In this document: one piece after another, positions 10,833-58,388 of the stretch
Numbering within the stretch: position 1 is the stretch's first letter
Layout: each line of letters starts with the position of its first letter
Virus record (IMG/VR): IMGVR_UViG_3300043429_001390
Span: 1 to 58,677 of that record
Strand: one strand, 5' to 3'
Length of the DNA stretch: 58,677 nt
Source: a virus
The notes under the pieces: generated by a model
The model's input: only the letters and a program-made list of their open reading frames with translations
What the model was told of the DNA's origin: nothing
Database searches by the model: none
Made by a program: the position numbers and the translations under genes

Positions 10833-10834
10833 GG

Positions 10835-11290: not shown

Positions 11291-11316
11291 TGTACGTTAG
11301 CAGGTGCTCACTGCAA
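11289..11316 (-). promoter_or_regulatory. candidate sigma70 promoter for the 151-aa gene
   Basis: Reading leftward, TTGCAG (11316-11311), a 16-base spacer, and TACAAT (11294-11289). The -10 box overlaps the ATG at 11290, so a transcript from here would begin near 11282 and be almost leaderless for the ATG at 11281. Sequence match only. Confidence 0.4.
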
Positions 11317-11320
11317 CTAC

Positions 11321-12982: not shown

Positions 12983-15900
12983 CGCTTCAAGACCACGACG
13001 CCGAGGCGCATCGTGCCCGTGTAGTAGGCCCGCGAGACCGTGATGGTGTGGTTGCCAGCACTGGGGCTGACGATGATCGAGCCGGTCGTGTTGCCGTTGT
13101 CGGTCAGCCCGGTGATGACCGGGCCGTAGGTGAAGGTGCCGCCGCCGTCCTTGCCGCCGCCTCCGGTGTACGTCACCGTCGAGGGGCCGAGGAAGTAGTC
13201 GATCAGGAGTGCGCTGGCGTTGGCTGGAACGTTGACCGTGACAGACACAGATGCCCCTGTCGTCGTGACGACAGAACCGACGGACGCGGCGTTGCCAGTG
13301 ATCGCGTTGGTGTCGATGACGTTCGCGGAGACCGTGCCGCTGAAGACCGCACTCCCGCCGCTCGTGATCGACAACCCCGGCATCGAGACGTTGCCGCTGA
13401 CATCCGCGTAGAAGTACTTGTTGTCGTTGGCGTTGCCAATCAGAAGACCGTTGGGGCCAAGGTAGAAGCCCTTCTTGTTCTGGCCGGCCGGCGGCCACGT
13501 CCAACCAGTGATGTCGCCGCCGGAGATGTCTCCTCGCACCGCGACTTGGTTGAAGTAGGCCGCACCGGCCTTGGTGATTCGCCAGCCGGCAGACCCTGCG
13601 CTGTAGTTCGTGGTCTGGATGTCCGTGCCGAGCTTCGTGATGCCGATGCTGTCGTCGGCGACGTACCCCATCGGGTTCCAGGGGCCTGCGTCGGTAGCGT
13701 TATCAGCGACCTGCTCTACTTGAACCCGGCCCACGAACATGTAGCTATCGCCGTAGCCGGACTTGGTGTCGATCTTGCGCAGATGGACCCTCAAGTAGGC
13801 GGCGGTCGACGGCATCGTGAGCACGCCGACTGTTCGCTTGTAGCCAGTCAAGCTCGTGCCGCCGGACGCCTCCTCGTTGTTCTCGACGTTGCCGATGTAG
13901 GTGTTTCCGACGACGGCGCCGGACGCGTCATGGATGTAGGCGAAGACTGCGACCCTGCAGCGATGTGCCCCCGTGTACGCAGAGATGGCGTATCGCTTGC
14001 CCCCAATGACCGTGCAGGTCCTGCCGGCGATCTCGTAGTAGTTGTTCTGGTTGTTCGTCGTGCCGATCTGGCGGCTCCACAGCACGGAGGTGCCGGGCCC
14101 CGTGTAGGGCGCAAGGTAGTAGCCGCTGAGGTTGACGCCCCACGAGTCTTGGGAGATTCCAACGCCCCCGGCGTACGTCCACCCGTCGAGCCCGTTCGAG
14201 AAGTCCGAGTTGTACTGGAGGTTGACGCCGTTCGCGATGTACGTGTTGTCGACCTGGACGCTACTCGTGCCGATGCCCTGCAGCACGCCGGAGCTGACGG
14301 TGATGTTCTGGTTCAGCGTGTCCTGCGGAGACGGCGTCCACGAGCTGGGCTGCGTGCCCAACTCGACCTTCGGGCAGCAGATGTCGATGACCGACCCACT
14401 GGGCAGAGACCCGGACACGCTCCACGACAGGTACAGCTCACCGACGGGCGTCTGCGCGTTGCTGTTGGGGATGCCCCGGAACACATACCGCTGCCACGAT
14501 CCAGTCAACGCGGGATTTTCGAGCACCGTCGTGCTGTTGAACCCCATGTTGCTGTCGTACCCGTTCATGTACTTGCCGACAGCGCCGCCAGACCCCCTGG
14601 CCCAGTAGCTGATGCAGTAGAACAGCCCTGGCTCCCAGGCCTTCACGGAGTCAGTGCTGTTTCCGGCGACAGCTATGCCCATCGTCGCGGTCGTGCTGGC
14701 GTTGGTAGTAACGCGGTAGTAGTTCTGCCCGAACAGACCGCCCGACTGAACAGAAGTAGTGACCGAGATGCCGAGGTTGTTGTAGACGAACCAGTTCGTC
14801 GGCAGCGTCCCGTTGTGCTTCAGGAAGCCGCTGTTGCCGACGAGGTTCACGCCCCCAGCGCGGACCTGATCATTGGCTACAACAGTGCCGGCCCCGGTGC
14901 CGATGCCCTGAATGGCGCCGCCGCTCACCGTGATGTTCGAGTTCAGCCACCCCGACGCAGCGTTCACGCGGCTGGAGTCGATGTTGTTGTTGACCCCGAA
15001 GAGGATGTTGCCGCTGTTGTCGCGGATCGTCAGGCCGTTGCTGTTGATCTGGGCGGCCGTGAGCTGGCCTCGGATCGAGGCGGCCCCGAGCTCCGCGGTG
15101 CCGTTCTTGTTGATGTGCCAGCCGGAGGTGCCCGCCACGTAGTTCGTGGACTGGATGAAGTTGCCGATCTTGGCGTTGGTGATCTGGCCGTCACCGATGT
15201 TGGCCTCGACAATCGTCCCGGCTGCGATCTTCGCGCTGCCGTCGATGGTCAGGGACTGAATCATCGCGTTGGTGATGGCGCCGGTCTCGACGGCAGCCGT
15301 TCCGACAGAGATGGCGTTGGCCGAGAGCTTGGTGGCCGTGATGGCGCCGTCGACGATCAGCTCGGCGGTGTTCGCCTTGCGCACGTGGATCTTGGTGACG
15401 AACCAGTTGCCCGCGGGAGACGCGACCCCCACAGTGCCGAACGCGATCAGAGCGCGTGCCGGCACGTACGTGGTGCTGTTGTACGTGAACGTGGCAGGGA
15501 TCGTGATCTGGCCAGAGTACCGGGCCCAGCCGGTCGCGTTGCTCGGCGTCAGCGGGATGCTGGGCCAGTAGTAGCCCACGCCGGTCTGGTCGTTGATCTG
15601 GAGGAAGATGCGGGTGGGGCTGTTCGCGGTCGCGTCCGAGGCAGCGTAGAACTCCGCGTAGTAGACCTCTCCGGGCCTGACGTCGAACGTGCCGATCGCG
15701 GCGCAGTCGTTGTTCGCGTTCGTGAGCACCGGGTTGCGCACGACGTACGCGGCCGGCGCACCGGAAGGAACTCCGGCAGCCCCCCTGGCGACGACCGAGG
15801 ACGACCCCGTCAGCACCCAGCCATCGCTCGAACCGCCGCTGAAAGAGGGGTTCTTGATGAGGTTCGTGGTGTCGACGACGGCGAGCTTGCTGGCCGTGAT

Positions 15901-16683
15901 CGCGTTCGCGGCGATCTGGTCGGAGCCGATTGCGCCGGCCTGGATCTTCCCGCTCGTGATCGTGCCGGTTGTGATCTTGTCCGCCGACAGTGTGTTGTCG
16001 ACGATGACGTCGCCGCCGAAGAACGCCGTCAGCACAGTCCACGTTCCGCCGGAACTGCGCACGCGGGTCTGAGTGAAGCTCGACCCAGTGTTGTACAGGG
16101 TGACGACGTCGCCCTGCAGCGGGCTGCCCCCACCCGCGTTGGAGATGGCAGTGGCCGCCTCCGCGTCAGACCATGCCGTGCCGGTGATCGCCCGTGCGGT
16201 GGTGATCGTGCCGCGCGTGCCCGTTGGGCCCGTTGGACCCGTTGCGCCCGTTGCGCCCGTCGCACCCGTTGCACCGGTGGCCCCCTGTCGGGCCTTGGCG
16301 ACGCTGAAGCGCTTCGTCAGGTTGACGCCGCTCTTGCTGGCCGTGATGTCCAGGTAGGACAGGTCCTGCGTCAGGGAGACGACGCGCACGTAGCCCGTCG
16401 TCCCCGTGATCAGCCCGTTCGTGGCGCCCGTGCCAGTCCGATCCGACGTGTCGTCGCTGTCCCTGTACGCGATACCGCCCCCGGTGGCGGAGACGTAGAA
16501 GGACCACGTCGAGCTGGTGTCGACGCCCGCCTCGAAGACCTTGAGCTGGGTCTCGGCCCCGGTGAACGACGCCACGTTCCCCGCGCTGTCCGCGGCGATG
16601 ACGTAGCTGTCGTTCGTGAGCAGGCTGCCAACACCGTCGTTGACATCGACGATGGTGATCGCACCAGTACTGACGACGGGCAC
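12979..16683 (-). CDS. large tail fibre / receptor-interaction protein with collagen-like repeat, 1234 aa
   Basis: Starts with GTG at 16683 behind an AGGAG ribosome site. The N-terminus MPVVSTGAITIVDVND is nearly the same as that of the neighbouring 488-aa protein, suggesting a shared attachment domain. Residues about 135-158 form a collagen-like Gly-Ala-Thr/Gly-Pro-Thr repeat encoded by a 9-bp tandem DNA repeat. The long remainder has repeated 'AITNAMIQSLTIDGSAKI...ATKLSANAI' and 'GDITGWTWPPAGQ' segments typical of gpJ- or DUF1983-like central fibre domains, and carbohydrate-binding-like jelly-roll stretches around 280-440 and 640-1000. Probably trimeric and exposed at the tail tip. Confidence 0.8.
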   Translation of the reverse strand: MPVVSTGAITIVDVNDGVGSLLTNDSYVIAADSAGNVASFTGAETQLKVFEAGVDTSSTWSFYVSATGGGIAYRDSDDTSDRTGTGATNGLITGTTGYVRVVSLTQDLSYLDITASKSGVNLTKRFSVAKARQGATGATGATGATGATGPTGPTGTRGTITTARAITGTAWSDAEAATAISNAGGGSPLQGDVVTLYNTGSSFTQTRVRSSGGTWTVLTAFFGGDVIVDNTLSADKITTGTITSGKIQAGAIGSDQIAANAITASKLAVVDTTNLIKNPSFSGGSSDGWVLTGSSSVVARGAAGVPSGAPAAYVVRNPVLTNANNDCAAIGTFDVRPGEVYYAEFYAASDATANSPTRIFLQINDQTGVGYYWPSIPLTPSNATGWARYSGQITIPATFTYNSTTYVPARALIAFGTVGVASPAGNWFVTKIHVRKANTAELIVDGAITATKLSANAISVGTAAVETGAITNAMIQSLTIDGSAKIAAGTIVEANIGDGQITNAKIGNFIQSTNYVAGTSGWHINKNGTAELGAASIRGQLTAAQINSNGLTIRDNSGNILFGVNNNIDSSRVNAASGWLNSNITVSGGAIQGIGTGAGTVVANDQVRAGGVNLVGNSGFLKHNGTLPTNWFVYNNLGISVTTSVQSGGLFGQNYYRVTTNASTTATMGIAVAGNSTDSVKAWEPGLFYCISYWARGSGGAVGKYMNGYDSNMGFNSTTVLENPALTGSWQRYVFRGIPNSNAQTPVGELYLSWSVSGSLPSGSVIDICCPKVELGTQPSSWTPSPQDTLNQNITVSSGVLQGIGTSSVQVDNTYIANGVNLQYNSDFSNGLDGWTYAGGVGISQDSWGVNLSGYYLAPYTGPGTSVLWSRQIGTTNNQNNYYEIAGRTCTVIGGKRYAISAYTGAHRCRVAVFAYIHDASGAVVGNTYIGNVENNEEASGGTSLTGYKRTVGVLTMPSTAAYLRVHLRKIDTKSGYGDSYMFVGRVQVEQVADNATDAGPWNPMGYVADDSIGITKLGTDIQTTNYSAGSAGWRITKAGAAYFNQVAVRGDISGGDITGWTWPPAGQNKKGFYLGPNGLLIGNANDNKYFYADVSGNVSMPGLSITSGGSAVFSGTVSANVIDTNAITGNAASVGSVVTTTGASVSVTVNVPANASALLIDYFLGPSTVTYTGGGGKDGGGTFTYGPVITGLTDNGNTTGSIIVSPSAGNHTITVSRAYYTGTMRLGVVVLKR
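16213..16284 (-). repeat. 9-bp tandem repeat encoding collagen-like GATGATG/GPT segment
   Basis: On the coding strand GGC/GGT-GCA/CCC-ACG-type 9-mers repeat about seven times, giving Gly-Xaa-Thr triplets in the 1234-aa fibre. Such tracts expand and contract by slippage and act as stalk segments in phage fibres. Confidence 0.7.
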
Positions 16684-16698
16684 TGCTGTGGGCTCCTG

Positions 16699-18165
16699 TT
16701 ATGGACGGTTGGCTTCGCAGAGGATGCGGGCCTTCACGTCCACCTCGTCGCCGGTGACGGTGATCGAGGCGCCGGCGCTCGTGGTGCGGGTCCCGCCGTT
16801 GGCGGTGCAGCCGTACAGCTTGCCGCCCACGAAGTCGCTCGCCGACGAGGGAGCCGGGAAGTCGGTGAAGTTCAGCCACGTGTTCGTCGACGGGGTGCGG
16901 ATCGTGACGACGTTGGTCGTGCTCGATGCCACCTCGTAGAAGAACGCCGTGCCGTCCGGCTTCACTGCCTTCACGATGTCGCCGGCCGCGAACGCGTAGC
17001 TCGTGCCGCCGTAGGTGATCGTGGCCGAGGTGCCGGTCGTGTTGGCCGAGATGGCAGCGCCGCCGGCAGTGCTGATGCGAGCCGTGTCGACGAAGCCACC
17101 GCGCTTGCCGTTGCGGTCGTACAGGTACCACGTGAAGGACCACCCCGTGAGGTTGGTCACCTCGGTCGGGCCGTAGAACACACGCGGCGAGAGGGCGGTG
17201 CTGCCCTGCCCGTTCTGCAGCTTGTCACCCGACGTCGACTGGACCTGCGTGGTGTACAGGTCGCTGATGTCGTAGACGGTGAAGTACTGGCTGTACGTCT
17301 TCGAGTCCGAGTCGGTGATGTCCACCCGGAACACGCCGATGTTGGCGATTGCGCTCTCGTTGATCACGAGCGTGTTGAAGGCATTGCCGCTGCCAGATGC
17401 GGGCACGTTGACGCCGAGATCGGAGCCGGACGCGGTCGGCGTGACGCCGGTGGCCGTCGTCTTCATGCCGTACTTCGTCGCGAAGCTGCTCGTCGAGGTC
17501 GAGATCTGCGTCGACGCGTTGCCGTCGTACCAGCGGTACGTCAGGCCGCTCGTGTCCACGCCGCTCGAACGCACGAGGTCGGCCGTGATGGCGACGTTGT
17601 TCTTGGTCGAGCCCGTGGCCTGCTCGATGTTGGTCTGGCCGCGCGTCGTGATGTAGACCGCGTTCGTGCCCGTCTTCACGGTGTTCAGAGTGATCTGAGC
17701 CGTGATGTGGGTCGTCAGGCTCGTGACCGGGTCGACGAAGTCCGCATCGAAGAAGAGCGCCAGGGACGCGACGGAGTCCTTCAGGTTGCCAGCGATGGAG
17801 ATCGTCGAGGCGGTGGACGATCCGTTCGCGGCGTGCGAGACCGTGAAGGGGTTGTTGACCTGCACGTCCGAGTTGTTCACGAACGAGGTAGACGTCGAGC
17901 CCGTCGTCAGGGCCGTGCCACCAGCAGTCAACGCGAACTGCTTGTTGACGAGTGCCGCCCAGGCCTGCGCGTTGTTCAGGCCGCCGATCGAGATCTGCGG
18001 CGTGATGACCAGCGCACTCGACGCCCACGAGGGGGTGTACGAGATCGTGGACTCGTCCTTGGTGTAGACCTGCTGCGTACCGCCGTTGGCGGTCAGGGCG
18101 AGGGTGATTGACCGCGCATCGTTGGTGTCAACGATGGTGATCTGACCGGTTGAGACAAGAGGCAT
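16699..18165 (-). CDS. tail protein sharing an N-terminal module with the fibre gene, 488 aa
   Basis: Begins MPLVSTGQITIVDTND, closely matching the first 16 residues of the 1234-aa fibre encoded downstream. The body is rich in Thr, Ser, Ala and Val with Ig-like beta patterns (for example SSALVITPQISIGG and YTKDESTISYTPSW) and no coiled coil, consistent with stacked beta-sandwich domains of a baseplate or fibre-base protein. It lies between the 459-aa FN3-like tail protein and the large fibre. Confidence 0.7.
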   Translation of the reverse strand: MPLVSTGQITIVDTNDARSITLALTANGGTQQVYTKDESTISYTPSWASSALVITPQISIGGLNNAQAWAALVNKQFALTAGGTALTTGSTSTSFVNNSDVQVNNPFTVSHAANGSSTASTISIAGNLKDSVASLALFFDADFVDPVTSLTTHITAQITLNTVKTGTNAVYITTRGQTNIEQATGSTKNNVAITADLVRSSGVDTSGLTYRWYDGNASTQISTSTSSFATKYGMKTTATGVTPTASGSDLGVNVPASGSGNAFNTLVINESAIANIGVFRVDITDSDSKTYSQYFTVYDISDLYTTQVQSTSGDKLQNGQGSTALSPRVFYGPTEVTNLTGWSFTWYLYDRNGKRGGFVDTARISTAGGAAISANTTGTSATITYGGTSYAFAAGDIVKAVKPDGTAFFYEVASSTTNVVTIRTPSTNTWLNFTDFPAPSSASDFVGGKLYGCTANGGTRTTSAGASITVTGDEVDVKARILCEANRP

Positions 18166-18176
18166 TTCAAACTCCC

Positions 18177-19556
18177 TTACGAACTGATGACGTCACAGAA
18201 GAACGTGGCTCGGGCGTACACATCGTCGACGTTGATGGAGACCTGCGTGTAGCCCGTCTGGTACAGGTTGTTCCACGTGGCATCGTCATTGGGTGGCGCC
18301 TGCGGGATCGCAGACACCCTCCGCCAGCGAAACCACCCGGTCGGCGTGACGTCGGTCACCTCCGCTCCGTTCTTGAAGAGGTGCGCCTTCAGCAGCGTGG
18401 TCGTGCTCTGGCCCCTCCTGAAAATCGTCCCATTCGTCGACTCGATAGTCAGCGTGAATGACTGGCCGTCCGCCAAGTACACAACCCACCCAAGAGGCGT
18501 GCCGGTTAGCACGTAGCTCTTGCCGTCGGTCGAGTTCTTGTAGACCGAATTCTGCCTCCACGAGGCGCCGAGCTGAGCCTGCGTCGGGGCGCTCGCGAAC
18601 TCGCCCACGTAGTTCAGGGACGGCACCAGCGAGTTCGCGGCCACTGTCGACAGCAGCACGTTGTTGCTGTTGACGTTGACGTAGGCCGTGGATGAGATCT
18701 CGCCCGTGGAGGAGAAGACCGGGGTGCCGTCCGAGGAGAGAATGTTCAGTCCCCGAGCGTCTACGTCGGAGGCCGGCGTGTCTTTCGTGTACGCGGTGCC
18801 GTTCCAGCGGTACAGCTTGCCGGTCGTGGTGTTGAAGATGTTCGCCGTGACCCTGGTTGTCGGGATGGACGTAACGAGCGTGACGGGCTCGATGTCGTTG
18901 GCGAACTTGGTGGCGTCGACGGCCAGGGGCGCCAGCTTCGAGGCCGAGACGGACCCGTTCGCGAGGTTGCCGGCCTCCACGATCAGCGGGCTCAGGTCGA
19001 CGTTGCCGATCTTGCCTGTCGTCGCCTGCACGCCATTCGTGCTGTTGTACGGCCCCGTGACATCCGCAGTCGAGCGAAACCGCACCCAGTAGAAGTAGGT
19101 GACCCCGGTCGAGCCGATCGCGTCGCTGTAGAAGCGCGTGTCGGAGGTGCCGATCAGGAGCGCGTTGCCGATCACATCGGTCGAGCTGCGCCAGATCTCG
19201 GTGTAGGCGTGGTTGCCATAGCTCCAGGCGGCCCACTCCAGGATGATGAGCGCGAGGCCGGCCGAGGCCGTGAGCCCCGTCGGCTGGGGCGGGGGCGTGA
19301 GGTCCGGCTGCTCCGTGTTGCCCGACCCGAGGCCGGGCGCCGGTGAGATGTTGACCGAGCCGGACCCGCCGCCGCGGGAGACCACGGTCGCATCCGCGAG
19401 CCCACCATCGACGAGGTCGCGCAGCGTGACGTTCCTGTCGAGCGGGTCTCCGATCAGCCCCTCGCGCACATCCAGTACGTTCTTGACCGCGCGAGCAACG
19501 TCGCGCAGGTTCGCGTCGGTGGGCGCGGGGATCGCTGCTACGCGGGTCTTGGTCAT
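18177..19556 (-). CDS. tail protein with fibronectin III-like domain, 459 aa
   Basis: After a short helical N-terminus and a Gly/Ser linker (about 65-75), the segment PPPQPTGLTASAGLALIILEWAAW and TYFYWVRFRS (about 90-150) has FN3-type spacing, as in host-specificity proteins of the lambda gpJ kind. A later 'VSASKLAPLAVDATKFAND' segment is also typical of this group. Its start overlaps the stop of the 540-aa gene (ATGA). Likely a tail-tip or fibre-anchor component. Confidence 0.7.
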   Translation of the reverse strand: MTKTRVAAIPAPTDANLRDVARAVKNVLDVREGLIGDPLDRNVTLRDLVDGGLADATVVSRGGGSGSVNISPAPGLGSGNTEQPDLTPPPQPTGLTASAGLALIILEWAAWSYGNHAYTEIWRSSTDVIGNALLIGTSDTRFYSDAIGSTGVTYFYWVRFRSTADVTGPYNSTNGVQATTGKIGNVDLSPLIVEAGNLANGSVSASKLAPLAVDATKFANDIEPVTLVTSIPTTRVTANIFNTTTGKLYRWNGTAYTKDTPASDVDARGLNILSSDGTPVFSSTGEISSTAYVNVNSNNVLLSTVAANSLVPSLNYVGEFASAPTQAQLGASWRQNSVYKNSTDGKSYVLTGTPLGWVVYLADGQSFTLTIESTNGTIFRRGQSTTTLLKAHLFKNGAEVTDVTPTGWFRWRRVSAIPQAPPNDDATWNNLYQTGYTQVSINVDDVYARATFFCDVISS

Positions 19557-32184: not shown

Positions 32185-33654
32185 TCAGTAAACCCGCTCG
32201 ACCTTCTTGACTTCGCGCCGGCCGGACTGCAGGGCCACCCCTCTCACGTTCATGTCGATGACGCTGTCGGCGTACTGGTTGGCGTCGTGCACGTGGGAGA
32301 ACGAGTTCTTGTCCGGGCGGTCCTCCAGCTCACCGTTCTTCTTGATCTTGTACCGGTAGCCGTAGCGAAAACCCCGGATCAGCGTCTCGCACGAGGGGTC
32401 GATGAGGTACATCGCCTTGCCCTCCAACTGTTGAACGAGCAAGCGTTCGACGGCCTGGATGCGCCGCTCGGGGTCGTTGGTGGGTGGGCGCACGCACTTG
32501 AAGCCGGCCTTCTTCAGCACGTCGACGAGGCTCATCTCGTTCATCTGCTGCTTGGCGAAGCCGGCCGGGTCCGGGGCGCACACGAACGAGCCGCCAGCAA
32601 AGTTGTTGGCGATGAAGGGGTTGAGCCGCGTGCTGATGAACGTCTCGATGCCCATGTTCTCCGCGGTTATCTCCCCCAGGGTCAGCACGCGCCCACGCGG
32701 GTCGCGCTGCTTGAACACCGCTGCGGGCGTGCGGCCGAAGTCCACGCCGATCACGATGGGGTATGACTCCCCGCGGATGTACTTCAGCGGCGTCTCGCTC
32801 ACGTGGAAGTCGTACGTGAAGGTCTTCTCGTAGACCGGCGTGCCGGACAGGGACCGGCCGTACTCCGAGCGCAGGTACACGCGCAGCCAGTCCTCGGTCT
32901 TGCCCGGGATCAGGTTGGGGTAGTAGGCCTTGGGCAGGTGGTCGTAGTTGTCGCACTCGGGGTTGACCGCCCACTCGTTGAGGTCCTTGTCCTCGAAGAC
33001 CTCCTCGGGCTCCTCGCCGTAGAGCTCGACGTAGCGCTCGGGCTTGAGGATGGCAGCCGGCTGCTTGTAGACCGCCCAGTTGCTAGGCGGGTTCTCCATC
33101 TTGTCGTGCCACCACGTGTCCTCATCGGGCATGTTGGTGTCGAAGAGCGCGCAGCTCCGGGTGGGCCCGCCGTCCTTCATCGAGGGGTATCGGTTCAGGC
33201 GCCCCAGCAGGCCGTCCACGACCTCGCTGTGCAGCTCGCGCGCCTCGTTGCCCCACAGGAACGTGGTCTCCAGCGACAGCGCCTTTCGCACGTCGTCCGG
33301 GGTGTCCAGCGCGATGAACAGCCACTCCGACTCCACCCGGGTGCCGTCTGGCAGCGTGGCCATCAGCGTGAAGGTCTTCTCCACGGCCTTCCACACCCCG
33401 GCCTCGCCCGGGGGCAGCCAGTCGAAGACGGTCTTCCTGGTGGTCAGCGCCAACTGGTCGGCGGTGTTTCGCACGATGACAGCCCGGGTCTTCCTCACCC
33501 CGTTCTTGTTCGGGGCCTGCCCGCAGGCAAGGCGCACGAGCTCGTGCACACAGGTCACCGACTTGCCACCGCCCACGGGGCCGGCCAGTACGCGCACGTA
33601 GGCCTCATCGAGCATGAACGCGCGCTGGGTCCTGGTCGGGTCGTAGACGCTCAT
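32185..33654 (-). CDS. terminase large subunit, 489 aa
   Basis: Packaging motor ATPase and headful/site nuclease. Walker A GPVGGGKS at 25-32; a Walker B-like strand TFLWGNEARE; then the RNase H-fold nuclease start YPIVIGVDFGRTPAAVF with a metal-binding Asp, and a late KNSFSHVHDANQYA that supplies further acidic and His residues. The ATG at 33654 overlaps the stop of the small 56-aa gene (ATGA); a longer frame upstream is not used. It ends before a hairpin. Confidence 0.9.
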   Translation of the reverse strand: MSVYDPTRTQRAFMLDEAYVRVLAGPVGGGKSVTCVHELVRLACGQAPNKNGVRKTRAVIVRNTADQLALTTRKTVFDWLPPGEAGVWKAVEKTFTLMATLPDGTRVESEWLFIALDTPDDVRKALSLETTFLWGNEARELHSEVVDGLLGRLNRYPSMKDGGPTRSCALFDTNMPDEDTWWHDKMENPPSNWAVYKQPAAILKPERYVELYGEEPEEVFEDKDLNEWAVNPECDNYDHLPKAYYPNLIPGKTEDWLRVYLRSEYGRSLSGTPVYEKTFTYDFHVSETPLKYIRGESYPIVIGVDFGRTPAAVFKQRDPRGRVLTLGEITAENMGIETFISTRLNPFIANNFAGGSFVCAPDPAGFAKQQMNEMSLVDVLKKAGFKCVRPPTNDPERRIQAVERLLVQQLEGKAMYLIDPSCETLIRGFRYGYRYKIKKNGELEDRPDKNSFSHVHDANQYADSVIDMNVRGVALQSGRREVKKVERVY

Positions 33655-33821
33655 TGCAGCCGCAGCTCCCCGCTCTCGTACTTCTCGCGCCCATCCAGGC
33701 TGTGGTGGACGTAGACCGACGGGTCGTCCTCCAGTGGTGTCGGGTGGCACCAGCAGCCGACACTGACCTCATGCTCGCGCAGGTCGTTCAGCGGCACGAC
33801 GTGGACGAAGTCTTCCCTCAC
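33651..33821 (-). CDS. small conserved-looking phage protein, 56 aa
   Basis: GTG start at 33821 overlaps the small terminase stop (GTGA) and its own stop overlaps the large terminase ATG (ATGA), so three genes are chained. The sequence VREDFVHVVPLNDLREHEVS followed by CWCHPTPLEDD and VYVHHSLDGREKYE is a recurrent phage type: a small domain with CWC and several His residues that may bind metal. Sandwiched between terminase subunits in many podoviruses; function unknown. Confidence 0.7.
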   Translation of the reverse strand: MREDFVHVVPLNDLREHEVSVGCWCHPTPLEDDPSVYVHHSLDGREKYESGELRLQ

Positions 33822-34330
33822 TCGGCCTCCAGCACGTTGACGTCCTGCACGGCCTGGATGGGGCGCGGCCCGTTGGTCATGCTGATGCTCTTGTCGCCCA
33901 GGTTGATCTGGATCGAGAAGCCAGTGCCCGCACCGGCCGGGCCCTTGACCTCCTTGGGTTCGAGGTTGCCGAGCTTGGCGAAGGTCTTCAGGGCCTCCAG
34001 GCGCTGCGGAAGGCTCACTTCGGGCCCCATGGCCTGGATCCACGTCTTGTCGCGCAGCTCCGCGGCCTGCATGGCGGCCATGACCTGGAAAGTGATGCCG
34101 TCCTTGTCCAACTGGGCCCGTTGCGCAGCCAGAGCGACCTGGAAAGGGCGCAATTGGCTCAGCCGCTGGTAGTCCTCGACCGAAAACCCGTACCTGGATG
34201 CCACCACGAGCTCGTCTTCGCGCCCAAGGGCGAGGTAGAAGAGCATTTCAGGGGGTACCGGGGGCAATGAAACCGGCCGAAAGTCCGGTTCGAGGGGTGA
34301 ATCGTCGATTTCGTCGTCACTGGGGCCCAT
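33818..34330 (-). CDS. putative terminase small subunit, 170 aa
   Basis: DNA-recognition subunit for packaging, inferred mainly from position two genes before large terminase. The N-terminus is acidic; the middle is a helix-turn-helix-like segment (ELVVASRYGFSVEDYQRLSQLRPFQVALAAQRAQL, about 37-75), then helices and a beta-rich C-terminus (GFSIQINLGDKSISM). This plan matches phage small terminases. Overlaps the RHH gene by 14 bases. Confidence 0.7.
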   Translation of the reverse strand: MGPSDDEIDDSPLEPDFRPVSLPPVPPEMLFYLALGREDELVVASRYGFSVEDYQRLSQLRPFQVALAAQRAQLDKDGITFQVMAAMQAAELRDKTWIQAMGPEVSLPQRLEALKTFAKLGNLEPKEVKGPAGAGTGFSIQINLGDKSISMTNGPRPIQAVQDVNVLEAE

Positions 34331-34478
34331 TTTTCGCCTCCGCAGCCTTCCTGACGGCCATCAGGTACTTCTCCAGGGCGGTTCTTACCACGTCAGCGAG
34401 CGGAACCCCCCGTTTCTGGGCGAGTTTCCGGGCCTCGGCGACCAGTTCGTCGGGCAAGAACATGTTGTGGCGCTTCAT
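34317..34478 (-). CDS. ribbon-helix-helix type DNA-binding protein, 53 aa
   Basis: Direct translation gives MKRHNMFLPDELVAEARKLA, then QKRGVPLADVVRTALEKYL and a charged tail. The strand (HNMFLPDEL), helix (VAEARKLAQKRG) and second helix (PLADVVRTALEKYLMAV) match ribbon-helix-helix repressors such as Arc/CopG. Probably a dimeric transcription regulator. As the second gene of the leftward arm it could autoregulate the terminase operon or act on the hairpin-rich intergenic region. Confidence 0.7.
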   Translation of the reverse strand: MKRHNMFLPDELVAEARKLAQKRGVPLADVVRTALEKYLMAVRKAAEAKNGPQ

Positions 34479-35217: not shown

Positions 35218-35748
35218 ATGGACATCAAGCAACTCATGCAGGCCATCGGTCGCATCGGCAAGGCCGCGGCCAAGCTGACGAAGGACGTGCAGACCGTCGC
35301 GGTCGAGGCGGCCCTGCACGCCGTCGATCACGGCAACGTGACCCCCGCCAACGAGCTCGTGGAAGCCATCGGCAAGGGCATGCGCCGCGCCTCGCTGCGG
35401 GCGTGGTTCGAGACGAACACCCCGATGTTCATCCCCAAGGGCAAGGACAAGTTCGGGTTCGACTCCGAGCGCGCCAAGGCCATGAAGGCCGAGGACCGTG
35501 CCGCCCTGCGGGAGCGCCTCATGGCCCTGCCCTGGGAGGAGGCCAAGCCCGAGGAGAAGGTCGTCTCCGTGTTCGACGTGTCCGAGGCCTTCGACAAGTT
35601 CATCAAGCGCGTGGAAGGCATGGTGAAGGACGCCAACGTGAGCGTGCGCAACCGCGAGCTGCTGGAGCTGCTCAACCAGCAGGTCTCCATCTACCACGCC
35701 AAGCGCATCCTGGCCAACGTGAAGACCGACGGCGCCGACGAGGAGTGA
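35218..35748 (+). CDS. first rightward-arm protein, helical, 176 aa
   Basis: MDIKQLMQAIGRIGKAAAKL opens a helical, Lys/Ala/Glu-rich protein with RASLRAWFETNTPMFIPKGKDKFGFDSERA in the middle (about 57-87). The ATG at 35218 follows CTGGAG; longer in-frame starts run through the hairpins. It is followed by a compact hairpin, so it may be its own short transcript, as expected for an early protein. The mid-protein 'W...N.P......KFGF' pattern recurs in uncharacterised phage early genes. Function unknown. Confidence 0.75.
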   Translation: MDIKQLMQAIGRIGKAAAKLTKDVQTVAVEAALHAVDHGNVTPANELVEAIGKGMRRASLRAWFETNTPMFIPKGKDKFGFDSERAKAMKAEDRAALRERLMALPWEEAKPEEKVVSVFDVSEAFDKFIKRVEGMVKDANVSVRNRELLELLNQQVSIYHAKRILANVKTDGADEE

Positions 35749-35804: not shown

Positions 35805-36080
35805 ATGCCCACCGTGTATCGCGTGACCGCGGGCACCATGCCCGCAAGCGGGCGTCGCACTCAGCCCGATGCGCTCGACTTCGATGCGGTCATCCGTGCC
35901 CGCATCCCCCAGACGGCCACGCGCCCCGGTTACACCGGCGTGCGTGCGGGTGCAACGCTCAAGACCCCGGCCATCTACGCGGCCGCGCGCTCGGGCGGGT
36001 TCCGCTACCCCAACCAGTTCAAGGAGCCGGGCCCCGGCCGGTTCTGGGTGGCCAAGCACGCGAAGGACACTACCCGGTAG
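35805..36080 (+). CDS. small basic protein before the repeat region, 91 aa
   Basis: ATG at 35805 with a GAAGGAGG site. Arg/Ala/Pro-rich; GYTGVRAGATLKTPAIYAAARSGGFRYPNQFKEPGPGRFWVAKHA (about 43-87) looks like a small basic, perhaps nucleic-acid-binding fold. Its last codons run straight into the first ACACTA-N5-TAGTGT palindrome (36067-36083), so the repeat forms part of its C-terminus (KDTTR). No homologue recognised. Confidence 0.6.
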   Translation: MPTVYRVTAGTMPASGRRTQPDALDFDAVIRARIPQTATRPGYTGVRAGATLKTPAIYAAARSGGFRYPNQFKEPGPGRFWVAKHAKDTTR

Positions 36081-36157
36081 TGTGACACTAGCGGATAGTG
36101 TGTCCGGGGGCTGCGCACGCGCAGCACTCATCGCGCCGCCATGGCTGCCGGTGTTAC

Positions 36158-36339
36158 AAAATCATCGTGACACACTACCGGATAGTGTGTCCCCGGTTTT
36201 CGGCCGTGTGCGCCCAGGCAGGGACACTACCGGCTAGTGTCCCCCATGCAATTAGACAAGGGACACACTACCGTCTAATTGCTTGTCTAATTGCAAAACG
36301 GCCAAAAGACACTATCCGGTAGTGTGTCACGATGATTTT
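36158..36339. repeat. perfect 31-bp inverted repeat pair flanking 120 bp
   Basis: Positions 36158-36188 and 36309-36339 are exact reverse complements over 31 bp (AAAATCATCG then the palindrome ACACTACCGGATAGTGT region). Between them lie a further full palindrome (36221-36243), a half site, and three TGTCTAATTGC elements. It could extrude as a cruciform or reflect an inversion/duplication event. Confidence 0.85.
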
Positions 36340-36598
36340 CAGCTTGTAATTAGACAATTAGACAATAAGACAAGAAAAAAGGATCCGTGTACGTGAGGCG
36401 ATGACGGGGTCTGAGAGCGGCCCGCGTCATGGTCACAAAGGCCCCTCCAAAAATCCGCTCTGCCAATTCCGGGGTTGTCTAATTACAAGCCCGCACCCCC
36501 CAAAAACCCCCACACGACACTACCCGCTAGTGTTTCCGCCCCCCTTTTGCATTTAGACACGGCCTGTCTAATTGCCCCCTCCCACCCTGTCTAATTAC
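36248..36598. repeat. second iterated element, TGTCTAATT(G/A)C
   Basis: Copies in both orientations: GCAATTAGACAA 36248-36259, GTCTAATTGC 36273-36282, TTGTCTAATTGC 36283-36294, CTTGTAATTAGACAA 36343-36357 with tandem 8-bp copies ATTAGACA/ATAAGACA to 36372, TTGTCTAATTACAAG 36475-36489, a variant GCATTTAGACA 36549-36559, TGTCTAATTGC 36565-36575 and TGTCTAATTAC 36588-36598. AT-rich in a GC-rich genome, as for origin iterons or unwinding elements. Confidence 0.85.
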
Positions 36599-36607
36599 GA
36601 GCCCCTC

Positions 36608-36736
36608 ATGGACGAACGCGACCTTGCCCACGAATCCGACCTGCGCCAGCGTGAACTCGAAGCCCTGATGCTGGACTGCGAGGGCGAGGAGCCCGTGCCC
36701 TGCGAGCCGTGGCCCCTGGAGGACCTCGACTTCTGA
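36608..36736 (+). CDS. very acidic mini-protein inside the repeat region, 42 aa
   Basis: Direct reading gives MDERDLAHESDLRQRELEAL then MLDCEGEEPVPCEPWPLEDLDF. Fifteen Asp/Glu against three Arg gives a strongly negative protein with two Cys. No good ribosome site is seen, but it is the only start-to-stop frame in this stretch with codon use like the neighbours. Small acidic phage proteins can act as DNA mimics; that is a suggestion only. Confidence 0.45.
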   Translation: MDERDLAHESDLRQRELEALMLDCEGEEPVPCEPWPLEDLDF

Positions 36737-36874
36737 GCGCACACACTACCCGCTAGTGTGTCAACACCTTGGGACGCTACCGGATAGTGTCCCTGCCCGC
36801 TCGGCGGTTCAGCCGCTAACCCAGACACACTACCGGATAGTGTGTCCCCCACCCACACCCCATTGGAGGACGTC

Positions 36875-37402
36875 ATGCGCACGCACACCCGTCACGCCCA
36901 CGTGGGCAAGCGCAGCAACAACCAAGGCCTGTTCAAGTTCTGGGCACGTGACTACAAGCGCACGGCCAAGCTGGCCGACCGGGCCCTCGCCCGGCGCGAA
37001 GCCGAGGACGAGCTCAACCCCCGGCGCGAAGCCGAGGACGAACCCAATGAGGAGCGCGACTCCGAGTACGAGCGAGCGGTCGAGCACTCACGCCAGGAGG
37101 CCAACGCCCGGTTCCTGCGCCGCATGGGCGAGGGCACCGTGTTCTGGGAGCAGGTGCGGTCCCTGCGCTCCGATGTCAGCGTGCAACTGCTGCGGGTCAA
37201 CCGCGACCGGGAGTCGTACCTGTTCGATGACATCGAATGGTGGGCTTCCACGCTGGCGACCGTCGAGCTCGACCGGGACGCATTCGAGTGGCGCATCCAC
37301 GTGCGTGGGCGCGAGGACAACAACCTCACCCTGCCCTTCGACCGGTACACCCTGGAGCAAGCGCTGGCCGTGGCCCACACGATCCACCACCTCTACACCT
37401 GA
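36875..37402 (+). CDS. hypothetical protein with internal tandem duplication, 175 aa
   Basis: ATG at 36875 after TTGGAGGA, 28 bases beyond the last palindrome, so the palindromes may control it. A basic N-terminus (MRTHTRHAHVGKRSNNQGLF) is followed by two near-identical 10-residue units RREAEDELNP/RREAEDEPNE (about 41-60; a 30-bp DNA repeat), a charged helix, and an alpha/beta C-terminus ending in EQALAVAHTIHHLY. Candidate for a protein that acts on the adjacent repeats; no DNA-binding fold is recognised. Confidence 0.65.
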   Translation: MRTHTRHAHVGKRSNNQGLFKFWARDYKRTAKLADRALARREAEDELNPRREAEDEPNEERDSEYERAVEHSRQEANARFLRRMGEGTVFWEQVRSLRSDVSVQLLRVNRDRESYLFDDIEWWASTLATVELDRDAFEWRIHVRGREDNNLTLPFDRYTLEQALAVAHTIHHLYT

Positions 37403-44813: not shown

Positions 44814-45233
44814 ATGAACATGTACACCGTCTCCGACCTCCGCTCTGAGGTCAACTGGCTGCCCCACACCAAGCTTCTCGCCTTCCTCAAGGCCAAGAAG
44901 ATCGCGCCTGCCCACCAAGTCGTGGCCGGCAAGCGCACGTTCCGCCTGTACGACGAGGCAGCACTCATCAAGTGCCGCGCGCTGCGCAAGGCCTACGACG
45001 AGAAGCGCGGCCTGACCAAGAAGTCGCCCGAGCCCGCGCCCGCGCAGCAGCCCTACGCCCCCTCGGTTGCCGCACTGCACCTCGCCATCGAACGCATGGC
45101 CGAGCAGATCACGCGCATGGGCACGCAGCTCGACATCCTGGTCAAGGAGCTGGGCAGTACCGCCAGCTTCGATGACGCGCCCGCGCCCGCACCGGCACCC
45201 GCACCCGCACCCGCGGTCGGAGGCACAGATTGA
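44814..45233 (+). CDS. putative DNA-binding protein, 139 aa
   Basis: An N-terminal winged-helix-like segment (YTVSDLRSEVNWLPHTKLLAFLKAKKIAPAHQV, about 4-36) then RLYDEAALIKCRALRKAYDEKRG, as in MerR/phage regulatory domains; a helix for oligomerisation (AALHLAIERMAEQITRMGTQLDILV) and a Pro-Ala tail. Probably a transcription regulator; it has its own promoter just upstream. Confidence 0.55.
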   Translation: MNMYTVSDLRSEVNWLPHTKLLAFLKAKKIAPAHQVVAGKRTFRLYDEAALIKCRALRKAYDEKRGLTKKSPEPAPAQQPYAPSVAALHLAIERMAEQITRMGTQLDILVKELGSTASFDDAPAPAPAPAPAPAVGGTD

Positions 45234-45469
45234 AGTGCCCAACGTGCGGCGCCTGGACCCAGGTGCTGGAGACGCGATCACACCGCCGGGCGAACGCCAA
45301 GAGGCGTCGCTACGAGTGCGCGAACCAGCACCGGTTCACAACCCTGGAGTCCGTCATTTCCCCGCGTGGCCCTTCCTTCGCGTCTGGAGAGACGGAGTCC
45401 TCTACATCAACCGAGCCCCGCGACGAAAGCGGGATCTCAAGAGTTACGGAGAAGCACCATGGTGAATAG
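45230..45469 (+). CDS. NrdR-like zinc ribbon protein, 79 aa
   Basis: TTG start overlapping the previous stop. MKCPTCGAWTQVLETR...RRRYECANQHRFTTLE matches the zinc-ribbon half of NrdR (Cys3, Cys6, then a C-x3-H pair in place of C-x2-C), without its ATP-cone. DNA binding by such ribbons makes it a possible phage regulator. The C-terminal half is Ser/Glu-rich and unstructured. Overlaps the next gene by 11 bases. Confidence 0.65.
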   Translation: MKCPTCGAWTQVLETRSHRRANAKRRRYECANQHRFTTLESVISPRGPSFASGETESSTSTEPRDESGISRVTEKHHGE

Positions 45470-45665
45470 CTTTGGATGCAAGGGCCCGTGCGACCAAGGC
45501 CGCAAGAACTGCCCCCACCCGCAGGCCTGCGAGCTCGACGACGAGCCGGAGTACGGGCCTCGCGAGTGGTTCGACAGCACCCTGTTCGATGCGCTGTGTG
45601 TCGTGGCGGTCATCACGTGCGTCCTGGCTGTCGCGGCCGCAGCGTACTGGGCGGGTTCGCAGTGA
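45459..45665 (+). CDS. Cys-rich membrane-anchored mini-protein, 68 aa
   Basis: MVNSFGCKGPCDQGRKNCPH then PQACE gives four Cys in 22 residues; a C-terminal span LCVVAVITCVLAVAAAAYWAG. Common small-gene type in phages of high-GC proteobacteria. Topology suggests a small metal-binding head on a membrane anchor. Confidence 0.6.
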   Translation: MVNSFGCKGPCDQGRKNCPHPQACELDDEPEYGPREWFDSTLFDALCVVAVITCVLAVAAAAYWAGSQ

Positions 45666-46021
45666 TCACACCGCCCAACAACAAGGGCCGGCGCATCTTC
45701 AAGATCAACGCCTTCACGCAGGCCAAGCTGGTCAAGCTGATGCTCGAAGGCACGTACACCTGTGCGGAGCTGGCCGAGCAGACAGGCCTTCACTACGTGA
45801 CGGTGCTGGGCTACTGCCGCGCGTTCCACCGCGAGGGCGCAGCTCACATCAGCATGTACGAGAAGGACAGCCGAGGCCGCGACTCGCTGAAGGTCTACAA
45901 GATCGGGCCGGGCAAGGACGCCAAGCGCTCCAAGCTCACACCGGCACAGCGACAAGAGCGCGTGCGCAAGCGCAAGCAGATGGCCGCCATGCTCGGGCTC
46001 ACCGCAGGATCGCCATCATGA
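45662..46021 (+). CDS. helix-turn-helix protein, 119 aa
   Basis: GTG start. FTQAKLVKLMLEGTYTCAELAEQTGLHYVTVLGYCRAFHREG (about 18-60) is a resolvase/sigma-like helix-turn-helix with the recognition helix after 'TGLHYVTV'. The C-terminal third is Lys/Arg-rich. Probably a DNA-binding regulator. Confidence 0.65.
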   Translation: MITPPNNKGRRIFKINAFTQAKLVKLMLEGTYTCAELAEQTGLHYVTVLGYCRAFHREGAAHISMYEKDSRGRDSLKVYKIGPGKDAKRSKLTPAQRQERVRKRKQMAAMLGLTAGSPS

Positions 46022-55400: not shown

Positions 55401-58388
55401 ATGGACACCCTTGAGTTTCTGCGCACGATCCTGCCCGACGAGGGCATCTACTATCTGGCCCTCTTCCGCGAGGGCTACCAGTTCCCGGCGCACCGCGCCT
55501 ACACCGACCTGGAGACCATGGCCTACGCCGTCGAGGAGATGGCGGACAAGAAGGGCCTGTCGGTCTACCACGCCTGCGCCAGCTACCAGAAGGCAGTCAT
55601 CGAGATCGAGTCCGATGACCCCGACAAGCCCAAGCGCAAGTACCGCATCCCCGAGAACTGGGACCGCGCCAAGGCGTTCTGGGTCGACATCGACTGCGGC
55701 CAGGAGAAGTTCGACAAGGGCGACGGCTACATCACCAAGGCTGATGCGGCCAAGGCAGCCTTCAAGTTCGCCGACACCATCGGCTGGCCGCGCCCCATGC
55801 TCGTGGACTCGGGCAACGGGCTGCACGCCTACTGGCCGCTGATCAAGCCGCTGAAGGCCGAGAGCTGGCGCAAGATCGCCAACGTGTTGAAGGCCACGCT
55901 CGCCCACGAGGGCGTGCGGGCTGACCCCACGCGCACGGCCGACTTCAGCTCCATCCTGCGCCCCGTGGGCTCGGTCAACCGCAAGAACGGGGGGTCGAAG
56001 GCCGTCAAGGTCAAGTCGCTTTGCGTTGCCCAGGATGCAAAAGCGTTAGCAACTGCCCTGCTGAAGTACGCCACCGAGCACGGCGTGAAGCAGCCCAAGG
56101 CGGCAGCACCGTCCAAGCCTCGGGGTGGCGCGGACCTGAACTCGGACCTGACTGGGCACCTGTCGTACCCGGACATCCCGAGCAAGGGGGCCGAGGTGGC
56201 CTCCAAGTGCGCCCAGGTCGCTCTCATGCGCGACACCGCCGGCGACGTGAGCTACGAGCACTGGCGTGGGGTCATCGGGCTGCTCACCCACTGCGAGGAC
56301 GGACGCGAGCTGGCCGAGGCCTGGAGCGCGGAGCGGGAGAACACCGGCCACGCGCAGACCGACTGGCATACCCGGTTCGACACGTGGGGCTCCGGCCCGA
56401 CCACCTGCGAGTTCTTCGAGAAGTGCAACCCCGACGGCTGCACGGGCTGCGAGTTCAAGGGCAAGGTCAAGTCCCCCATCATCCTGGGGCGGGTCATCCC
56501 GATCGCCGTCGAGTCCGAGGTCGAAGTCATTAGCAACGAGGGCGAGTCCGAAGTCGTCACGACTCCGGCGCTGCCCACGTCTTACGTGTACTCCAACGGG
56601 CTGCTCACACGCCTGCTGCCGGACAAGGACGGGGTGCTGCAGTCGTTCCCCTTCTGCACCCTACTCTTCTACCCCACGGCGCGCATCCGGGCCGAAGACG
56701 GCACCTACCGCATCGGCATGCGCATGCACCTGCCCAACAAGCGCGTGCGCGACTTCGAGATGACACACGAGTCCATGGCCTCGCAGACCGACATGCTGAG
56801 GGCGATGGCCAAGTACGAGCTCACGCAGAGCAACCACAAGGACGCAGGCTCACACATGGCTGCCTACCTTCGAGACCAACTGGAGGCGCTCAAGCGCCAA
56901 GTCGAGGAGGTCAGCACGCTGACCAGCTTCGGCTGGAAGTCTGACGGCGCGTTCCTCATCGGGGACCGCCTCTACGGCGCCGACGGCTCGGTGCGCAAGG
57001 TGCTGCTGGGCGGCTCGGCCACCAAGTACTCGGCGAGCCTGCCCGCCCCCAAGGGCACGCTGGCCGGCTACGCCTCGGCGCTCAACTTCATGTACAACCG
57101 CGCCGGCATGGAGCACTGGCAGTACGCCATCTGCTCCGGCTGGGGGTCGATGCTGACACCCATGTGCGAGGAGCTCTTCAAGGGCCTTCTGGTAGCGCTG
57201 CGCGGAGGCGACTCGGGCAAGGGCAAGACCACCTGCTGCTACGCGAGCCTGTACGCCTTCGGCAACGCCGAGGGCATGTCGCTCAAGTCCAAGGACGGCT
57301 TCACGTACAACGCGCTGTGGGCGGTGCTCGGGGCGTTCAACAACCTGCCGGTGCTGCTCGATGAGCTCACCAACATGGACGCGGCGATGTTCTCCGACCT
57401 CGCCTACGGCGTGTCCAACGGACAGGAGAAGATCCGCCTGACCTCCAAGGGCGGCAGCGTCGGGTTCGCCAACACGATCCAGTGGCGGCTCTCCCCCTTC
57501 GTGACCGGCAACCGCGACTTCCACGGACTGCTCGCCACCACCCAGGCGAACTCGCAGGCCGAGGCCGTGCGCCTCGTGCAGATCAACGTGGACACCTACC
57601 CCGTGGTCCACCTGGACGAGGACCCCCAGCGCGAGGCCGAGATCGCGCAGCAGTGCATCGAGGCCATGAAGGCCAACGCCGGGTGCGCCGGCGACGCCAT
57701 GATCCGCTACGTCGTGCAGAACGTGAAGGCCCTCACCGACGAGGTGCGCGCCACGACGCTGGAGCTCGCCCGGCACCTGCCCGACACGAAGTACCGCTTC
57801 TACCGCGCGCACGGCGCATGCACGCTCACCATGTGCAGAGTTGCCCGCGACCTGGGCATCGTCGAGTTCGATCTCGATCGGCTCTTCGAGTTCACGGTCG
57901 AGCTGCTCAAGGAGCTGGCCGAGAACGTCGCCATCACCAACACGGTGACCATGGAAGACGCCTTCAGCCGCATGATGGCCGAGCTCGCCAGCCGCATCAT
58001 CGTAACCCACGAGTTCCGCGACGCCCGCCACAAGAACGGCCCGGAGACGCCGCGCAACCGCATCCAGGGTGCAGTGGCCGGGCGCTACGTGCTGGGCACC
58101 ACGACGTCGCGCGACTGCGCCGGGTACATCATGCTCAACCAGAAGGAGGTGCGCGACTGGTGCATGCGCAACCGCACCGACTACAACGCCATGGTCGGGC
58201 AGCTCGAACGCGACGGCGCGCTCGTCAAGCGCATGGACAAGATCACGCTCACGCGCGGCACCGACTTCCCCACCGTGCAGGCCCGCTGCATCATCGTCAA
58301 CTCGTACAAGCTGGACAAAGAGGCGCTAACTCTTGTTAGCAACAGTGTAGGCGAAGAGGGTGACAGACAAGCGGTCGGAGAGGTATGA
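55401..58388 (+). CDS. primase-helicase (AEP primase plus DUF927-type ATPase), 995 aa
   Basis: N-terminal archaeo-eukaryotic primase-like domain with WVDIDCG (Asp96, Asp98) and SGNGLHAYW (His142), then a Cys-rich region (CEFFEKCNPDGCTGCEFKGK, about 338-357) that could bind zinc. The C-terminal domain is a DUF927-like superfamily 3/AAA ATPase with Walker A GDSGKGKT (603-610), a Walker B-like NLPVLLDELT, and arginines in VTGNRDF. Joins primer synthesis to unwinding at the phage fork. Its 3' end also encodes the promoter for the following gene. Confidence 0.85.
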   Translation: MDTLEFLRTILPDEGIYYLALFREGYQFPAHRAYTDLETMAYAVEEMADKKGLSVYHACASYQKAVIEIESDDPDKPKRKYRIPENWDRAKAFWVDIDCGQEKFDKGDGYITKADAAKAAFKFADTIGWPRPMLVDSGNGLHAYWPLIKPLKAESWRKIANVLKATLAHEGVRADPTRTADFSSILRPVGSVNRKNGGSKAVKVKSLCVAQDAKALATALLKYATEHGVKQPKAAAPSKPRGGADLNSDLTGHLSYPDIPSKGAEVASKCAQVALMRDTAGDVSYEHWRGVIGLLTHCEDGRELAEAWSAERENTGHAQTDWHTRFDTWGSGPTTCEFFEKCNPDGCTGCEFKGKVKSPIILGRVIPIAVESEVEVISNEGESEVVTTPALPTSYVYSNGLLTRLLPDKDGVLQSFPFCTLLFYPTARIRAEDGTYRIGMRMHLPNKRVRDFEMTHESMASQTDMLRAMAKYELTQSNHKDAGSHMAAYLRDQLEALKRQVEEVSTLTSFGWKSDGAFLIGDRLYGADGSVRKVLLGGSATKYSASLPAPKGTLAGYASALNFMYNRAGMEHWQYAICSGWGSMLTPMCEELFKGLLVALRGGDSGKGKTTCCYASLYAFGNAEGMSLKSKDGFTYNALWAVLGAFNNLPVLLDELTNMDAAMFSDLAYGVSNGQEKIRLTSKGGSVGFANTIQWRLSPFVTGNRDFHGLLATTQANSQAEAVRLVQINVDTYPVVHLDEDPQREAEIAQQCIEAMKANAGCAGDAMIRYVVQNVKALTDEVRATTLELARHLPDTKYRFYRAHGACTLTMCRVARDLGIVEFDLDRLFEFTVELLKELAENVAITNTVTMEDAFSRMMAELASRIIVTHEFRDARHKNGPETPRNRIQGAVAGRYVLGTTTSRDCAGYIMLNQKEVRDWCMRNRTDYNAMVGQLERDGALVKRMDKITLTRGTDFPTVQARCIIVNSYKLDKEALTLVSNSVGEEGDRQAVGEV

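Follow-up and report, generated by a model that had tools for sequence, protein, structure and literature searches.

A clade-specific array of palindromic sites within a conserved, origin-like iteron region of a podophage group

Introduction

At the ori1/crr system of phage P4, octamer iterons in both orientations are used by the alpha primase-helicase as initiator. A second relevant class comprises the iteron origins of SaPI and SCCmec elements, which are served by Rep, Cch or Cch2 (Ubeda 2007, as cited in PMC7581432); Cch-type helicases are initiators, the C-terminal domain of which recognises origins made up of short iterons (PMC7581432). In several iteron plasmid origins, including those of pSC101 and R6K, initiation is supported by IHF, which is required at pSC101 (PMC4980987).

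Here we describe a region, positions 36067-36843, of a 58,677-nt virus record (IMGVR_UViG_3300043429_001390, G000; the whole stretch analysed is termed the window) that combines elements of all three systems. With P4 it shares octamer iterons in both orientations and a primase-helicase as proposed initiator, but the iteron sequence is different, the region is single and compact, and bender slots and palindromes are present. With the SaPI/SCCmec origins it has in common a DUF927-type self-loading helicase, short iterons and AT-rich DNA; unlike those origins, it belongs to a phage, the primase is fused to the helicase, the putative origin lies ~19 kb from the initiator gene, and IHF or palindrome slots lie beside tandem iterons. 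Iterons, an AT-rich stretch and, in the phage group, IHF sites are shared with pSC101 and R6K, whereas the phage is without a RepA-type initiator and the IHF sites are missing from the clade that carries the palindromes. Among cultured phages, the corresponding regions of Rollin and RHph_TM27A also have IHF sites in an AT-rich intergenic stretch, and Rollin has a palindrome array of its own; the palindrome sequences differ, however, and those of RHph_TM27A are genome-wide. A literature search found no description of such an origin type in this phage group. The array is real and clade-specific, and consists of candidate protein-binding sites within a conserved origin-like region, which appears to be a new variant of the iteron origin.

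Results

The genome is that of a podophage. Leftward genes encode structural proteins, including portal/head-tail, capsid and internal virion proteins, and rightward genes encode early and replication proteins, including an ATPase akin to those of N4-like phages, a VWA/metallopeptidase-like protein, DNA polymerase A, an exonuclease, a SNF2 helicase and a primase-DUF927 helicase. Two further leftward genes encode a 2608-aa polyvalent protein with similarity to DarB-like antirestriction proteins and ADP-ribosyltransferase (258-8084) and a membrane fatty acid desaturase-like protein (11321-12196), with histidine boxes, such as HRYFSHG and HTTHH, recognised by eye, which is retained in the close relative G005. 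The closest cultured phages, all distant, are Rollin (OR577172; L078) and the group of Rhizobium phage RHph_TM27A (MN988461; L080). Relatives were contigs retrieved via the ATPase gene, at which G003, G004 and G005 (L011, L013 and L030) are 88-89 % identical to the window; each of these three has seven perfect palindromes, and the near-identical contig G001 (L009) carries the first five palindromes of the window.

The array follows two early genes, encoding a 176-aa phrog_1448 protein of unknown function (35218-35748, +) and a 91-aa protein (35805-36080, +), and ends just upstream of a gene for a 175-aa protein (36876-37402, +), the N-terminal stretch of which is kept in the clade. The latter gene has an internal 30-bp tandem duplication at 36990-37049. 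A preliminary description made from the window alone had counted nine full copies of ACACTA-N5-TAGTGT plus a half site in under 800 bases. Eight copies are exact and the half site stands, but the ninth has a single mismatch (ACGCTA); all lie within 780 bp, at 36067-36843, and no further copy occurs in the rest of the record, so that the absence of full copies and of comparable motif density elsewhere is confirmed by a whole-record scan. From dinucleotide composition 0.0002 exact copies are expected. The hexamer ACACTA, counted on both strands, occurs 18 times in the array versus once outside it.

The first copy, A1 (ACACTACCCGGTAGTGT, 36067-36083), overlaps the 3' end of the 91-aa gene and, as had been noticed, forms its C-terminal codons (K-D-T-T-R-stop, the gene ending at 36080); its orthologue in G005 is at L030 6788. 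A2 (ACACTAGCGGATAGTGT, 36085-36101) is absent from L030, whereas A3 (36172-36188) and A4 (36224-36240) have orthologues at L030 6894 and 6945. The half site (ACACTACCG, 36265-36273) runs into an iteron. A5 (36309-36325) and A6 (36517-36533), which are 208 bp apart, are followed by a 42-aa acidic ORF (36608-36736, +) and by A7 (36743-36759), the mismatched A8 (ACGCTACCGGATAGTGT, 36774-36790) and A9 (36827-36843), the last being just ahead of the 175-aa gene. Extension of the arms to nine bases, reported for several copies, is seen at 36172, 36224 and 36827. The centres do vary, but the CCGG-like core proposed for them gives way to a stricter pattern, N-C-(C/G)-G-N, in 16/16 copies from two genomes. 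The preliminary description overlooked three further features of the region: interleaved octamer iterons, an AT-rich trough and a 31-bp perfect inverted repeat (36158-36188/36309-36339), the left arm of which contains A3.

Comparison of the window with L030 reveals that the arms are conserved and the centres drift, the outcome that the preliminary description had asked relatives to decide. At five orthologous sites, 0/60 arm positions have changed, versus 7/25 centre positions and 68/150 flanking positions (15+15 bases, ungapped comparison). Four copies in the window and two in L030, one of these inside the 91-aa gene, are unshared. Together, these results imply strong sequence constraint on the arms, with the copies themselves coming and going. 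Among 2.9 million viral contigs, arrays are confined to this clade, 16 other contigs having one copy each. Bacterial and archaeal genomes (257 Gb) yielded 97 scattered stretches, of which the 80 listed had a single copy each, and the extended form GACACACTA.. was absent; a site for a host regulator was rejected on these grounds. A DNA search in cultured phages gave chance matches only. A mobile repeat was rejected in view of the five orthologous positions and the zero copies elsewhere, and an RNA element because Rfam gave no match.

The palindromes are best read as double-stranded DNA sites for a dimer rather than as hairpins, given that the arms are invariant, that centres and flanks drift, that the two variable centre positions are complementary in only 1/16 copies (two genomes) and that no compensatory arm change is seen. 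The single strands can nonetheless fold to 6-9 bp stems with 3-5 nt loops, and the ATPase is akin to those of N4-like phages, which raises the alternative that, as in phage N4, the palindromes extrude hairpins that serve a virion RNA polymerase as promoters. Since loop orientation is not conserved, the arms never change compensatorily and an RNA polymerase was not recognised among the scanned proteins, we consider such promoters extremely unlikely.

The second motif, interleaved with the palindromes, consists of ten octamer iterons (TTGTCTAATT / AATTAGACAA) within ~350 bp (36250-36596); none occurs elsewhere in the genome. The basic form is TGTCTAATT, from which three of the ten differ by one mismatch. 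On the left are an iteron TGTCTAATT at 36250-36258 (-) and two at 36272-36292 (+; CGTCTAATT at 36272 and TGTCTAATT at 36284), followed by three in tandem with an 8-bp period (AATTAGAC AATTAGAC AATAAGACA, 36348-36372, -) and then a AAGAAAAAAGGATC box; the remainder lie at 36476-36484 (+), at 36551-36559 (-, one mismatch) and, as a pair starting at 36565 and 36588, at 36565-36596 (+). An AT-rich trough spans 36240-36360 (GC 0.40-0.43 vs 0.65), and the scanned stretch 36100-36650 contains the most AT-rich 100 bp of the genome, as does the corresponding region of both G008 and RHph_TM27A.

In contrast with the palindromes, the iteron layout has been kept in at least eight lineages whose iteron sequences have diverged (L010, L015/G008, L023, L026, L027, L028, G016, G019 and L019). 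Distant relatives without the palindrome have an iteron array in the corresponding position, downstream of the gene for the 176-aa protein and of small genes, and its iterons are related ones (AATTAGACA, AATAAGACA, AATTATCCA, TAATATCCA and TAATTATCT); the iteron DNA of G016 is TAATATCCAA. Single iterons recur, relative to the tandem triple, near -75 to -98, -42 to -77, +107 to +151 and +173 to +268, and the nearest left iteron lies 42-45, 55-57 or 64-65 from the triple, i.e. in steps of about one helical turn.

The proposed iteron-binding initiator is a 995-aa protein (55401-58388, +), a primase fused to a DUF927 helicase (DUF927 E 1e-20) of the SCCmec Cch / SaPI Rep type. A profile of eight of its relatives matched PDB 5dgk ('Active helicase', Cch-type) with E 3e-7 and, weakly, the pathogenicity-island protein 8tch; at pLDDT 45 its predicted structure is too low in confidence for the C-terminal domain to be judged. 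The preliminary description had suggested, from the density of the palindromes, a replication origin, a partition centre or an operator cluster. The first of these is strongly supported by the comparison with relatives and is retained with moderate confidence, albeit on a different basis, i.e. the iterons together with the AT-rich trough and with the IHF slots described below; being clade-specific, the palindromes are not the core of the putative origin. The GC-skew profile that had been recommended does not discriminate, there being no consistent sign change across the region, where gene direction switches nearby make skew uninformative.

In most relatives the exact IHF consensus WATCAANNNNTTR occurs on both sides of the tandem triple, starting at -44 to -19 and at +147 to +186 relative to it, with a pair spacing of 186-207 bp in the IMG/VR relatives. 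These sites account for all exact matches in the genomes of G008 (2 in the region/2 in the whole genome; 59 kb), RHph_TM27A (2/2; 61 kb, in a 770-bp intergenic gap), L010, L015 and L028 (2/2 each) and for some of those in L027 (2/3), G016 (2/8), G019 (1/2) and Rollin (1/2); a concentration of this kind would arise by chance with a probability of 6e-5 in G008 and 2e-4 in RHph_TM27A. In the palindrome clade the origin-like region has no exact match to the IHF consensus. Instead, both slots are filled by palindromes: A5 starts at -39 relative to the tandem triple, in the slot of IHF site 1, and A6 at +166/+169, in that of site 2, and the distance between them is 205 bp in L030. When the sequences are aligned, A6 coincides directly with IHF site 2 of L010.

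Random placement of the palindromes fills both slots with a probability of 0.04-0.11, so the slot match is only suggestive. Taken together with the missing IHF sites, it makes replacement of the IHF bender sites by sites of a clade-specific protein likely, a reading that we hold with moderate confidence. The slots are not universal, however: the region is without any IHF match in L023 and has a single one in each of G019 and L026; in these three the second slot is without an IHF site and has, by eye, a GGGTAAACCCTA dyad. Seven of the nine palindromes lie outside both slots, and the coexistence in Rollin of an IHF site with its own palindromes implies that palindromes need not replace IHF.

Repeats combined with IHF sites are also a feature of P1 pac and lambda cosB, which the region recalls. 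It might thus be a pac/cos-like site for initiation of DNA packaging, with small terminase on the iterons and a bend made by IHF, and genes for the large and possibly the small terminase subunit are indeed present at 32185-34330, 1.7 kb away. Further genes separate them from the region, though, and the contig ends of G019 overlap inside the ATPase gene, so that there is no fixed contig end at the region. The AT-rich minimum and an iteron-binding type of helicase suit an origin better, and a packaging role appears unlikely.

With respect to what binds the palindromes, a cognate DNA-binding protein is likely. The preliminary description listed four candidates, but one not on that list, gp139 (44814-45233, +), fits better. 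Its homologues were found only in G005 and G021, both in the clade (G021 and G004 are from the same metagenome), and no relatives were found in plasmids and phages. It is predicted to have a MerR-like winged helix (residues 1-66) followed by a coiled coil (85-116); the model has pLDDT 70 overall and 81-86 in residues 1-60, and most structure matches of residues 1-66 are MerR-type domains, the best with a middling Z of 6.9. Sequence libraries do not name it, there being no MerR family match in Pfam and NCBIfam. The case for gp139 as the palindrome binder, which we grade as weak to moderate, comes from one clade and is therefore confounded with common descent.

The model of gp139 also matches RacA (Z 6.8) and the DNA-binding domain of pSK1 Par on centromere DNA (8csh; Z 6.4, rmsd 1.8, 53 aligned). 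With its winged helix and coiled coil layout, gp139 might then act in the manner of RacA or of Par from plasmid pSK1, gathering on the palindromes beside the putative origin so as to place or segregate phage DNA. Z scores below 8 are middling, however, and general MerR regulators score equally; the scanned proteins (a subset of ORFs) included no recognisable ParA or ParB, and a lytic podophage has no evident need for partition. We regard a centromere-like function as very unlikely.

The four listed candidates fared unevenly. The 91-aa protein fits less well, since it occurs also in relatives without the palindrome. The 119-aa HTH protein, gp118 (45665-46021, +), a winged HTH protein, has distant relatives elsewhere and is an alternative candidate for the binder, as is the 175-aa protein. 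The zinc-ribbon protein, gp79 (45230-45469, +), has lost ground because members of its family are common among phages that do not have the palindrome. A 53-aa Arc/CopG-type repressor, encoded at 34317-34478 (-) beside a divergent promoter region, is conserved through the phage group; it was rejected as a binder because its putative contact residues are retained in phages without the palindrome.

The zinc ribbon of gp79 bears on a separate proposal. The NrdR box consensus is reportedly acaCwAtATaTwGtgt, according to Rodionov and Gelfand, the arms of which equal those of the palindrome. gp79 (79 aa) matches the NrdR zinc ribbon (PF22811, E 1.6e-10) and keeps most NrdR recognition residues (D15 as E), although TIGR00244 is matched by its first 42 residues only, the ATP-cone domain being missing. 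NrdR boxes are 16-bp palindromes (PMC12051234), and NrdR kinks DNA by ~90 degrees per box (PMC9110341); gp79 or host NrdR might therefore bind and kink the palindromes, which would link the putative origin to the supply of nucleotides or titrate host NrdR. The palindrome is, however, 17 bp long, with a centre that is one base longer and GC-rich; its sole near pair, A7-A8, has a 14-bp spacer, NrdR-box spacers usually being 15-16 bp; and gp79 is without the ATP cone. Moreover, ~100 phage relatives of gp79 (15 further genomes), mostly with the same residues, do not accompany such palindromes. Identity with an NrdR box was rejected on length and on these relatives, and an NrdR-related role seems most improbable. 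As an observation in its own right, stand-alone NrdR-type zinc ribbons without an ATP cone form a phage family with at least 101 members in viral contigs (loci L103-L182).

Discussion

The motifs themselves, the constraint on the palindrome arms, the conserved iteron core and the IHF consensus sites of the relatives are strongly supported. Our results leave the chances about even that 36067-36843 is a podophage replication origin at which bender sites have been replaced by sites of a clade-specific dimeric protein, with gp139 as the leading candidate. The core would consist of the ten octamer iterons around the AT-rich stretch; the primase-DUF927 helicase would bind the iterons through its C-terminal domain, melt the AT-rich stretch and load itself there. 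In the sister phages, host IHF would bend the DNA at two fixed slots flanking the tandem iterons, whereas in the palindrome clade the 17-bp palindrome stands in each of these slots as well as at several other points around the core, where a dimeric sequence-specific protein, most likely gp139, may determine the architecture of the origin complex or gate it. A further probable role of the outer copies is control of the early genes on either side.

The presence of two palindromes at the IHF docking sites of the sister phages suggests that the lineage replaced a host part with its own. More tentatively, it may have swapped a host-dependent, two-IHF-bend architecture for a self-encoded winged-helix palindrome binder, unrelated to IHF, in both slots and in added ones, thus freeing replication from a host factor; we consider this wider scenario less likely than not. 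The region provides a precise origin candidate, with every element placed to the base, for a group of uncultured phages that has RHph_TM27A and Rollin as cultured cousins, and it would represent a natural experiment, other sites having taken the place of those for a host factor with geometry unchanged. If true, the modularity of replication origins becomes testable, as does whether phages escape dependence on nucleoid proteins via benders of their own.

In other lineages this core is surrounded by palindromes of different sequence, namely GTGTGTATACACAC in G019, CCCTCTGCCCTAGGGCAGAGGG in L010 and AAGGTAG-N7-CTACCTT in Rollin, which implies that palindromes are a recurrent, fast-changing layer on a conserved iteron core. 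This layer probably serves early-gene control as well, and, with moderate confidence, in the clade of the window it has also taken the IHF slots. The palindromes could alternatively be an operator cluster alone, binding a phage repressor or activator of the flanking early genes, with the iteron core separate and merely sharing the intergenic space. Consistent with this, copies are found where small genes end or begin (A1 overlaps the 3' end of the 91-aa gene, and A9 precedes the gene for the 175-aa protein), the 91-aa gene of L030 has copies ahead of it and within it, and RHph_TM27A, G022, G038 and G042 have lineage-specific dispersed palindromes. The palindromes of those phages are spread over kilobases or the genome, however, compared with 780 bp here, A5 and A6 lie in the IHF slots between iterons and away from gene starts, and neither a sigma-70-type promoter nor a terminator was recognised in the region. 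We consider an operator cluster without a part in the putative origin to be doubtful rather than improbable.

Several related arrangements were observed in the course of this work. In L030, a short tandem repeat, GCACGGTAGCACCCAT, lies directly ahead of an early gene (8450-8520). RHph_TM27A (MN988461.1) has ~25 GTTACC(T)-N4/6-(A)GGTAAC palindromes genome-wide (e.g. at 5843, 8332, 20130, 20436 and 25690), and those copies that were read in sequence adjoin gene starts, where they overlap the probable Shine-Dalgarno sequence. In Rollin (OR577172.1), positions 1-500 of L078 hold an exact IHF site surrounded by an array of 25-bp palindromes (AAAAGGTAGCAAGTTACTACCTTTT), together with a TATGCAA repeat cluster; this stretch is likely the origin of that Pseudomonas phage. 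Dispersed palindromes also occur in zinc-ribbon phages, namely GGTTAGA-N3-TCTAACC in G022 (8 copies, 53304-58906), TTCATAC-N-GTATGAA in G038 (12 copies, 10113-18658) and CTAACA-N-TGTTAG in G042 (from 28854 on).
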